Positions 40,005 through 42,241 of a stretch of 64,000 nucleotides of DNA are shown here, piece after piece (position 1 is the stretch's first letter; every line of letters starts with the position of its first letter). Source of the stretch: Fibrobacter sp. UWH4. GTDB lineage: Bacteria; Fibrobacterota; Fibrobacteria; Fibrobacterales; Fibrobacteraceae. The notes under the pieces were generated by a model that saw only the letters and a program-made list of their open reading frames with translations, did not search any database and was not told the DNA's origin. The stretch is taken from NCBI RefSeq assembly GCF_900142475.1, contig NZ_FRAY01000002.1, positions 1 through 64,000 of the forward strand, written 5' to 3'. The position numbers were made by a program, and so were the translations under genes.

Positions 40005-40433
40005 TTAAGCACTAAAAGCGGGAAGCTTATCTATTTTCTGGAAACGCTTGGTGGCGGCATCCAGCGCAAAGTAGCGCACGGCATCGCCTAGCGATAGCAT
40101 CACGTACTTAGGCGTCAGTACCTGCAAATACTTGTTCAACTGCACCTGGAGCGCTTGCCACGTGTACTCGCCCGGAGCCTTGCATTCCACCAAAAGCCAC
40201 GGATGCTTCAAGTCTGCGCCATCCTTAAAGTCCTGCACCAGAATGTCCACGCGGTCATCTGTAGAAGACTCCACCGTCGAAAGTGCAAACTCCACCGCAA
40301 TCAGGTTCTGCGGCACCTTGACTTCATCCATCAGGAATTTAACCGTCGCCTGACGCACGAGTTCTTCGGGCGTAGCGGGCACCTCTTTTTGGCGAATGGG
40401 GTCGAATAAGGTTTGATGCTTGAGGTTGTTCAC
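40005..40433 (-). CDS. Solitary HsdR N-terminal-like nuclease domain protein
   Basis: 142 residues. PEELVRQATVKFLMDEVKVPQNLIAVE followed by DDRVDILVQDF...WLLVECKAP has the order of the type I restriction HSDR_N_2 domain: Glu, Asp and ExK of a PD-(D/E)xK fold are present. No helicase motor, specificity subunit or methylase accompanies it. Solo proteins of this kind are common in Bacteroidota and Fibrobacterota and their role is unclear. The start is GTG 40433 with a weak ribosome site. Confidence 0.75.
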   Translation of the reverse strand: MNNLKHQTLFDPIRQKEVPATPEELVRQATVKFLMDEVKVPQNLIAVEFALSTVESSTDDRVDILVQDFKDGADLKHPWLLVECKAPGEYTWQALQVQLNKYLQVLTPKYVMLSLGDAVRYFALDAATKRFQKIDKLPAFSA

Positions 40434-40522: not shown

Positions 40523-40552
40523 TTGACAATTTCCCTATTTTCAAACTATATT
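40523..40552 (+). promoter_or_regulatory. Promoter of the alanine attenuator leader
   Basis: TTGACA (40523-40528), an 18-nt spacer, TATATT (40547-40552). The predicted start is about 40559, one base before the leader ATG. Confidence 0.75.
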
Positions 40553-40559
40553 TGATTAT

Positions 40560-40679
40560 ATGAATAAAATCTTTGGACAGAACATCGCAGCAGCAGCCAT
40601 CGTAGCAATGGCAGCAAGCCCGGCAGCAGCCCGAGCTATTGTGGGGCTGTCCAGAGAAACCAAAATCTGTAAAGCGTAA
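40560..40679 (+). CDS. Alanine-rich leader peptide (39 aa)
   Basis: Short frame reading MNKIFGQNIAAAAIV, then AMAASPAAARA and ending ETKICKA. Twelve of 39 codons are Ala, using GCA, GCC, GCT and GCG, clustered between codons 10 and 26. Such biased leaders are control peptides: ribosome stalling at the codons reports charging of the matching tRNA. The upstream -10 box places the transcript start at or one base before the ATG, so the leader would be translated without a 5' untranslated region. It overlaps attenuator segments 1 and 2. It is shorter than most annotation cut-offs. Confidence 0.75.
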   Translation: MNKIFGQNIAAAAIVAMAASPAAARAIVGLSRETKICKA

Positions 40680-40737
40680 CGCTAAAATCCAGATTAAAAG
40701 TTTCAAGGGCAGCCCCGTAAAAGGCTGTCCTTTTTTT
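40627..40737 (+). promoter_or_regulatory. Transcription attenuator with antiterminator and terminator
   Basis: Four segments can pair in mutually exclusive ways. Segment 1 CAGCCC (40627-40632) pairs with GGGCTG inside segment 2. Segment 2 GGGGCTGTCC (40643-40652) pairs over all 10 bp (one G-T) with segment 3 GGGCAGCCCC (40707-40716): antiterminator. Segment 3 pairs over 8 bp with segment 4 GGCTGTCC (40723-40730), followed by T7 (40731-40737): terminator. Stalling at the Ala codons would cover segment 1 and favour 2:3, allowing read-through; completed translation favours 1:2 plus 3:4 and termination. Confidence 0.75.
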
Positions 40738-40877
40738 GACCGCTCGTTCTCACGAGCTAACGTTTTTACCCCAATTTCAACCATAAACCACAAGGAACAA
40801 CGAAAATTCTAAAAATTATATTCTATTATTACATTGTAAAATAATGAGAATTTTCGATCCCTATACAGGAGCTTAAA

Positions 40878-42179
40878 ATGCGCAGAAGACTATTGAGCGA
40901 AGGTGCCAAGGAACTCTCTTACGAAATCCGTGAGATCGTGAAGAAGGCAAACCAGCTCAAGGCACTCGGCCTCCCCATTCATTGGGAAAATATTGGAGAC
41001 CCCATTGAAAAGAAATGTCAGATTCCTGACTGGATTAAGGATATTGTAGTTGACCTCGCCAAGACAAACCGCAGCTACGGTTACTGTCCGTCCAAGGGGA
41101 TGCTCGAAACCCGCGAATTCCTGGTGAAAGAAAACAACAAGCTGGGCGGCGCCCAGATCAATGTCGATGACATTCTGTTCTTCAACGGCCTCGGCGACGC
41201 CATCGCCACGATTTACGGTCTTCTTTCGATGACGACCCGCATTATCGGACCGGCACCGGCCTACTCCACTCACAGCTCTGCTGAAGCGGCTCATGCCCAC
41301 ACGGCCCCGATTACTTACCGCTTGCAGCCAGAAAACCACTGGTATCCGGATTTGGAAGAACTCGAAAACAAGGTGAAGTACAACCCGAGTATCGCGGGCA
41401 TCTTGATTTTGAACCCGGACAATCCGACAGGCATGGTCTACCCGCTCGAGATTCTCCAGAAAATCGTGGATATCGCCAAGCGCTACAACCTGTTCATCAT
41501 CTGCGACGAAATCTACAACAAGATTACATACAACGGAGCGCACGCTTACGCGCTCGCCGAATACATTGGCGACGTGCCGGGTATCGCCCTCAAGGGCATT
41601 TCCAAGGAATACCCGTGGCCGGGCGCTCGTTGCGGCTGGGCTGAATATTACAACCGCGACAAGGACGAACAGTTCGACGCATTCTGCCGCGCTTTGGACA
41701 ACGCGAAGATGGTGGAAGTCTGCTCAACCACGCTACCGCAGATGACGATTCCCCGCGTGCTTGGCGACAAGCGCTTCAAGGAACACCGCGATGCGTTAAA
41801 CGAAAAAATCGGCCGCCGTAGCGCCATCATCAACGAAATCCTTTCCGATATTCCGGAGCTGTATTTCAACCCGACTTATGGTGCCTTCTACAACACCATC
41901 ATCTTCCGCGAAGGGACGCTCAACAGCCACCAGACCTTGAAGATCGACAACCCGATTATCAAGAAGAAGGTGGAAGAATGGTGCAGCAAGACAACGAACC
42001 TCGACTACCGCTTCGTGTACTACCTGCTGGGCGCGAAGGGAATCTGCGTGGTGCCGAGCACGAGTTTCTGTACCGACCTCAAGGGCTTCCGCGTGACGCT
42101 TCTCGAAGAAGACGAAGAGGAACTGAGGGAAGTGTTCACCACGATTCACGATGCAATCGTGGAATACTTGCACAGCTAG
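40878..42179 (+). CDS. alaA: PLP-dependent aminotransferase, probably alanine aminotransferase
   Basis: 433 residues, class I/II fold. NPDNPTGMVYP holds the substrate-binding Asn, ICDEIYNKITY the Asp and Tyr that contact pyridoxal phosphate, and GISKEYPWPGARCGW the Schiff-base Lys and phosphate-binding Arg. The N-terminal SYEIREIVKKANQL and GYCPSKGMLETREFL resemble AlaA (glutamate-pyruvate aminotransferase). An AGGAG site (40867-40871) precedes the ATG. The alanine-rich leader and attenuator directly upstream independently point to alanine synthesis. A strong terminator follows, so it is monocistronic. Confidence 0.88.
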   Translation: MRRRLLSEGAKELSYEIREIVKKANQLKALGLPIHWENIGDPIEKKCQIPDWIKDIVVDLAKTNRSYGYCPSKGMLETREFLVKENNKLGGAQINVDDILFFNGLGDAIATIYGLLSMTTRIIGPAPAYSTHSSAEAAHAHTAPITYRLQPENHWYPDLEELENKVKYNPSIAGILILNPDNPTGMVYPLEILQKIVDIAKRYNLFIICDEIYNKITYNGAHAYALAEYIGDVPGIALKGISKEYPWPGARCGWAEYYNRDKDEQFDAFCRALDNAKMVEVCSTTLPQMTIPRVLGDKRFKEHRDALNEKIGRRSAIINEILSDIPELYFNPTYGAFYNTIIFREGTLNSHQTLKIDNPIIKKKVEEWCSKTTNLDYRFVYYLLGAKGICVVPSTSFCTDLKGFRVTLLEEDEEELREVFTTIHDAIVEYLHS

Positions 42180-42208: not shown

Positions 42209-42241
42209 ACACTGCCTGTAACAAGGCAGTGTTTTTTTTTA
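42209..42241 (+). terminator. Terminator of the aminotransferase gene
   Basis: ACACTGCCT / AGGCAGTGT perfect stem, 6-nt loop, then T9-10. Confidence 0.92.

Follow-up and report, generated by a model that had tools for sequence, protein, structure and literature searches.

A short reading frame rich in alanine codons precedes a gene for an AlaA-like aminotransferase (alaA) in the 64,000-nucleotide stretch of Fibrobacter sp. UWH4 DNA analysed here (the window), and it raises the question of whether alanine synthesis in this organism is controlled in cis by a leader peptide. The initial annotation of the window had proposed a complete attenuator at this position, with the charging of tRNA-Ala setting read-through into the gene. 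Our analysis makes it highly probable that the element is a ribosome-mediated transcription attenuator, by which the aminotransferase gene is transcribed according to how much charged tRNA-Ala is available; the start of transcription, the translation of the leader, the stalling of the ribosome, the tRNA-Ala signal and the making of alanine by the enzyme are all parts of this reading that we infer. The features on which it rests are collected in Table 1.

Table 1. Features of the alanine leader region and of alaA, in positions of the window
Feature	Position	Strand	Details
Promoter P1	40523-40552	+	-35 TTGACA 40523-40528, 18-nt spacer, -10 TATATT 40547-40552
Leader peptide frame	40560-40679	+	ATG start, 39 codons, 12 Ala; MNKIFGQNIAAAAIVAMAASPAAARAIVGLSRETKICKA
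Segment 1	40571-40580	+	CTTTGGACAG; partner of segment 2 (3' part)
Control region	40587-40637	+	Lies in the 1:2 loop; holds 11 of 12 Ala codons, most of them GCA
Segment 2	40643-40656	+	GGGGCTGTCCAGAG; common to 1:2 and 2:3
Antiterminator inner helices	40656-40704	+	GAAAC 40656-40660 with GTTTC 40700-40704; AATCTG 40664-40669 with CAGATT 40690-40695
Segment 3	40707-40716	+	GGGCAGCCCC; common to antiterminator and terminator
Segment 4 and T7 tract	40723-40737	+	GGCTGTCC; together with segment 3 makes up the intrinsic terminator, whose stem begins at 40705
Second conserved hairpin	40801-40856	+	Arms CGAAAATTCT 40801-40810 and AGAATTTTCG 40847-40856; -10-like TATTAT of putative P2 at 40824-40829 in the loop
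Shine-Dalgarno sequence of alaA	40867-40871	+	AGGAG; all 70 Fibrobacter loci have AGGAG or TGGAG
alaA, AlaA-like PLP-dependent aminotransferase	40878-42179	+	433 aa; own terminator 42209-42232

Comparative data

Orthologues of the enzyme were present in 78 of 80 Fibrobacter genomes and in 119 of 168 genomes of the phylum. Upstream regions from 110 loci were scanned for a leader frame, and 54 leaders were aligned. A covariance model of the element (R1) was built from 31 diverse leaders and run on the 168 phylum genomes.

Leader reading frame and codon use

The 39-codon frame with 12 Ala codons that had been described for the window was confirmed by direct reading. Eight of the 12 codons are GCA, and an Ala content this high has a binomial probability of ca. 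3e-5 given the window's own Ala frequency of 7.8%. The conservation of Ala codons among relatives, which the initial annotation had put forward as a check, was also found, as all 54 leaders, chosen by a peptide-motif filter and therefore biased to intact frames, were Ala-rich, with 25-36% Ala codons each and a mean of 29%. Every strong match to the covariance model likewise carried an intact leader frame. The leaders resembled MNKIFGQNIAAAAIAASPAAARAIVGLSRETKICKA and occurred in many length variants, such as AADARIAAHAAIAANPAAARA, which differed in length and in their other residues but kept their Ala content. Loss of the frame among relatives had been named as evidence against the proposal and was not observed: the indels were all multiples of three, nine different spacings from segment 1 to the end of the Ala tract being represented, and differences among leaders fell on the third codon position about twice as often (2171) as on either of the other two (1218 and 1068).

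The choice among synonymous codons was equally marked. GCA made up 64% of the Ala codons in the leaders, compared with 17% in the long frames of the window. In theory, a sensitive attenuator is expected to use one chosen synonymous codon (PMC1183508), and the strong preference for GCA fits that expectation.

Promoter P1 and start of the leader

The promoter that had been placed ahead of the Ala-rich frame can be read directly in the window, where P1 agrees with the consensus at 11 of 12 positions, and it was kept in relatives, with an 11/12 match in 33 of the 54 leaders and a 10/12 match in a further 14. The -10 box stands 7 nt ahead of the leader ATG in the window. The start codon was found exactly 7 nt past the -10 hexamer in 47 of the 54 leaders, a count composed of 44 as scored and three (L030, L043 and L054) read from an in-frame start two codons upstream. 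Six of the other seven leaders start 6-9 nt past the -10 box; for L016, the scan picked a different hexamer pair, and its TAAATT box also lies 7 nt before the ATG. Position -1 was a pyrimidine and position +1 a purine in 53 of the 54 leaders, and a motif resembling a Shine-Dalgarno sequence preceded the leader start in only 3 of the 54, so Shine-Dalgarno initiation of the Enterobacterial type is not what the Fibrobacter leader displays. Because of the 7-nt spacing, the bases at -1 and +1, and the scarcity of Shine-Dalgarno motifs, the first nucleotide of the transcript is most likely that of the leader start codon, and the leader appears to be translated from a leaderless mRNA whose 5' end is placed by this spacing.

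The divergent neighbour of the leader, at 40005-40433 on the reverse strand, is a 142-aa frame with an HSDR_N_2 domain (Pfam PF13588), and similar sequence was also seen upstream in several relatives.

Competing RNA pairings

Of the three alternative pairings in the initial annotation, 2:3 and 3:4 stood, and the partners given for 1:2 had to be replaced. Direct reading of the window confirmed the 2:3 pairing over 10 bp, formed by GGGGCTGTCC (40643-40652) with GGGCAGCCCC and including one G.U, as well as the 3:4 pairing of GGGCAGCCCC with GGCTGTCC over 8 bp (10 bp including AA:UU), which is followed by the T7 tract at 40731-40737. The local 1:2 helix noted earlier, CAGCCC:GGGCUG in the window, was broken in ca. 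12% of cells among relatives and had zero covariation. The conserved 1:2 pairing joins CUUUGGACAG (40571-40580) to CUGUCCAGAG (40647-40656) and holds the Ala codons in its loop. The RNA folded more stably than dinucleotide shuffles, with z = -3.5 for the whole leader and z = -5.2 for the region from segment 2 to segment 4.

In the 54-leader alignment, the share of paired cells was 96.3% for 1:2, 97.6% for the 2:3 core and 94.3% for 3:4, and when the partners were slid by one to three columns, it fell to 21-67%. The initial annotation had called for compensatory changes in segments 1-4, which were present in 1:2, 2:3 and 3:4, and had held that a 2:3 pairing broken without compensation would speak against attenuation, which the near-complete pairing of the core does not bear out. 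Cells changed on both sides, a count of sequences and not of independent events, numbered 10 for 1:2, 30 for the whole antiterminator and 12 for 3:4, and 0 of 500 shuffles reached values as high. For 1:2, a GC to AU compensation occurred in 8 sequences of one clade. Three cases stood out most clearly as separate. In the clade of L060-L070, the segment 1 sequence GAACAG was matched by CUGUUC in segment 2. In the sister genus, three adjacent 2:3 pairs were changed jointly (UCGAC:GUCGA compared with GGGGC:GCCCC), with 3:4 changing along, and L065 carried the compensated variant GAGGC:GCCUC. The 2:3 and 3:4 pairings are mutually exclusive and both conserved, as in an attenuator, and the protector pairing of an attenuator is provided by CUUUGGACAG:CUGUCCAGAG. 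A search of the locus against Rfam gave no family at gathering score, the best being an unrelated Listeria sRNA at 18.7 bits against a threshold of 45, and Rfam recognised no T-box core with specifier loop there.

Distribution, linkage to alaA and probable loss

The covariance model gave 62 strong matches (E <= 4e-18), from 58 of the 80 Fibrobacter genomes and from 4 genomes of a sister genus (g6) in the same family, whose enzyme is 76% identical. The strong match was single in each genome and always ahead of alaA, even where alaA was split over contigs; genomes that supplied sequences to the model match by construction, and the single-copy result is independent of that. Further copies in the source genome were sought with the same model, and the three other matches each came only at E > 2.

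The leader was missing from 18 of 70 Fibrobacter loci (L013 is truncated), and almost every other genus of the phylum lacked it. At several of these loci, such as L012, L029 and L071, an orphan terminator (3:4) remains before alaA, the leader and segments 1-2 being gone, and the deletion seems to span from just past a -35-like TTGACT to segment 3. Absence of the leader with such terminators is likely a secondary loss. Outside Fibrobacterota, a search for Ala-rich leaders at 50 AlaA-like genes, mostly from Bacteroidota, yielded one short Ala-containing frame that was unconvincing. In the source genome, a quick look upstream of the ilvB, hisG, trpE-type (chorismate-binding) and leuA-type genes, for which operon starts were not fully resolved, gave no obvious leader attenuators. 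The exact conserved core was not found in viral contigs.

The downstream gene and its putative role in alanine synthesis

The aminotransferase downstream of the leader had been described as closest to AlaA, and this held, as its best match by sequence among solved structures was E. coli AlaA (4cvq, E = 7e-41). The product is a class I aminotransferase that scored 700 bits against NCBIfam PRK06855, for which the cut-off is 443, and from this PRK06855/AlaA-like homology we infer that the enzyme makes alanine. It is unlikely that the enzyme is another transaminase, for example one with tyrosine- or aspartate-type substrates, to which alanine would be merely a proxy signal. Such a reading would draw on the NCBIfam label, which is the generic "PLP-dependent aminotransferase" only, and on PRK08363, the alanine aminotransferase model, to which the enzyme scored far under the cut-off; it is opposed by AlaA being the nearest solved relative, by the conservation of the N-terminal YxIR motif, and by the search of this genome with TIGR00518, which found no alanine dehydrogenase. 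Since alanine dehydrogenase was not found, it is plausible that AlaA is the main alanine route here. In E. coli, alaA is under the control of Lrp. Alanine synthesis in that organism is split over alaA, alaC, avtA and others (PMC9309667).

Proposed attenuation mechanism

Because the leader and the hairpins are conserved with compensation in dozens of relatives, the cell of these rumen Fibrobacter probably gauges alanine by the speed of the ribosome on the Ala codons, and the codon content and structure of the leader point to tRNA-Ala charging as what is sensed. Transcription from P1 would begin at or next to the leader start codon, so that loading of the ribosome at the 5' end would need no Shine-Dalgarno sequence. 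When Ala-tRNA is plentiful, the ribosome would pass the Ala codons toward the stop, and segment 2 would be kept in the 1:2 pairing behind it (or, in one clade, be covered by the ribosome itself at the stop), allowing 3:4 to form and transcription to terminate at ca. 40737. When Ala-tRNA is scarce, the ribosome would wait on the Ala codons with segment 1 covered or passed and segment 2 free; 2:3 would then form, 3:4 would be blocked, and RNA polymerase would enter alaA. If there is no translation, 1:2 would form, and transcription would terminate.

Each leader was folded with the RNA free downstream of a ribosome whose A site was set on each Ala codon or at the stop, or with no ribosome. At equilibrium, a ribosome on the Ala codons gave a mean P(2:3) of 0.69 and P(3:4) of 0.31, a ribosome at the stop codon gave a mean P(3:4) of 0.99, with 1:2 behind the ribosome at 0.79, and the free RNA gave a mean P(1:2) of 0.72 and P(3:4) of 0.75. 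The control codons favoured 2:3 and the stop favoured 3:4, an effect that was weak or absent in one clade; in most leaders, a stall ahead of segment 2 favoured the antiterminator, and from the last Ala codon on the terminator was back. Because the folding is an equilibrium one, assumes a ribosome footprint and ignores upstream RNA, it speaks for consistency with the mechanism only. In most members of a clade of 92% identity, a stalled ribosome still left the terminator favoured at equilibrium, so any antitermination in that clade would need to arise kinetically. Some leaders, L018, L041 and L053 among them, preferred 2:3 to 1:2 when free of ribosomes. The leader of the L060 clade ends just past segment 2, which a ribosome at the stop would cover directly, an arrangement nearer the trp layout.

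The folding also indicated that any halt before segment 2 tends to free that segment, and therefore the selectivity of the switch depends on the density of Ala codons. Attenuation could then be real and respond to general slow translation, whether from antibiotics, global starvation or arrest by an Ala-rich nascent chain, and not to tRNA-Ala specifically, a behaviour that has been proposed for uORFs of the whiB7 type. Most ribosome halts before segment 2 did give 2:3 in the folding scan, and the whiB7 uORF responds not only to amino acid starvation but also to many antibiotics (PMC11550727; PMC12121999). We nevertheless consider this quite unlikely, as Ala was kept while other residues and length varied, GCA was strongly preferred, the controlled gene encodes an alanine-type aminotransferase, and Ala codons were enriched (odds ratio 2.6) among the codons whose stalling yields 2:3. 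Sensing of tRNA-Ala charging remains the preferred reading of the signal.

Probable proximal promoter and second hairpin

A second promoter, P2, probably also serves alaA, as suggested by a -10-like box ca. 45 nt before the gene in 68 of 70 Fibrobacter loci, including loci that have no leader. With P2 present, the attenuator would govern the P1 share only, and some alaA transcription would bypass it. That the frame is a separate small-protein gene with its own terminator, leaving alaA to P2 alone, is very unlikely, even given the P2 box at leader-less loci and an insertion that widens the distance from terminator to alaA in some genomes: a plain terminator requires 3:4 alone, yet 1:2 and 2:3 are kept by compensation, a 10-nt insertion in one clade put the C-terminal third of the peptide out of frame and left the RNA segments unharmed, the element was never found apart from alaA, and the peptide had no match among phage protein families in the single library tried.

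Between the terminator of the attenuator and alaA, most loci with an uninterrupted interval from leader to gene carry a second hairpin with covarying arms and a stem of 10-16 bp. Across Fibrobacter, its arms varied as TCT/AGA, TCAC/GTGA and TCAAA/TTTGA, with G.U on one side, around a loop of ca. 33-36 nt. This covariation, with G.U on one side, suggests that the second hairpin acts as an RNA element. A single joint reading, by which an alanine-specific leaderless attenuator would read tRNA-Ala(UGC) via GCA and, with the second hairpin and promoter, would give a two-layer control of alanine, may hold, and we put it forward with considerable doubt.

Two further observations concern the same interval. 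In many Fibrobacter genomes, a GGATCCTTCGCCCTTTACAGGGCTCAGGATGAC-like repeat was inserted between the terminator and alaA (L009, L011, L021, L027, L028, L032, L041, L044, L050, L051 and others), and with the insertion the second hairpin has often lost its left arm. At L089-L100 and L114, from other genera of the family, a -10-like box of the TCTANATT type lies within ca. 10 nt of the alaA ATG, and this proximity suggests a leaderless alaA mRNA there.

Comparison with known systems

The attenuators trpL, hisL, leuL, thrL, ilvL and pheL of Enterobacteria also combine a short leader frame rich in the end product, mutually exclusive 1:2, 2:3 and 3:4 pairings, and a terminator before a biosynthetic gene. 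The Fibrobacter element has the testable structural features of a trp/his-type attenuator except Shine-Dalgarno initiation. It differs from the trpL type in its amino acid, alanine, in being found in Fibrobacterota, and in a putative start at the 5' end that lacks a Shine-Dalgarno sequence, and its control codons occupy the 1:2 loop, whereas those of classical attenuators lie inside segment 1.

To our knowledge, the amino acids usually listed as controlling the gene for their own synthesis through a leader-peptide attenuator in cis do not include alanine. Our search of the open full-text literature found no such attenuator at a gene for alanine synthesis. A survey of 2010 noted that leader-peptide attenuators had been known only in Proteobacteria and Actinobacteria before it added Firmicutes (PMC2965389), and the Fibrobacter case would add one amino acid and one phylum. 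Leaderless initiation would here serve an attenuator with a complete terminator and antiterminator pair. For a family named by NCBI only as an aminotransferase, the attenuator would also give a strong prediction of function, namely alanine synthesis. Close relatives differ naturally in having the intact switch, the terminator only or neither, so that what the switch costs and what it gains could be tested by comparing them.

The alaS T-box of Firmicutes senses tRNA-Ala charging by direct binding of the tRNA. As proposed for Fibrobacter, charging is sensed at an intrinsic terminator; the T-box RNA binds tRNA directly and works without a leader peptide, whereas the Fibrobacter element has one. 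Leader peptides that are rich in the sensed residue and leaderless or without a Shine-Dalgarno sequence are also reported from mycobacteria, as leaderless polycysteine sORFs (Canestrari 2020), and from C. glutamicum, where the ilvBNC leader reportedly needs no ribosome binding site (Morbach 2000); both concern other amino acids and another phylum than the Fibrobacter leader. For the mycobacterial cys leaders, conserved terminator hairpins were not found (PMC1262725).

The nearest known system is the whiB7/wblC uORF of Actinobacteria, which is reported likewise to couple uORF-controlled intrinsic termination to alanine starvation (Lee 2022 and Poulton 2024, as cited in PMC13236596 and PMC11550727). 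The whiB7 uORF is reported to respond to alanine starvation and to reach alanine synthesis (aspC) indirectly via WhiB7 (PMC13236596; PMC11550727). The gene under that uORF encodes a transcription factor for antibiotic resistance, and the uORF answers to many antibiotics, whereas the Fibrobacter leader would act directly in cis on an alanine enzyme.
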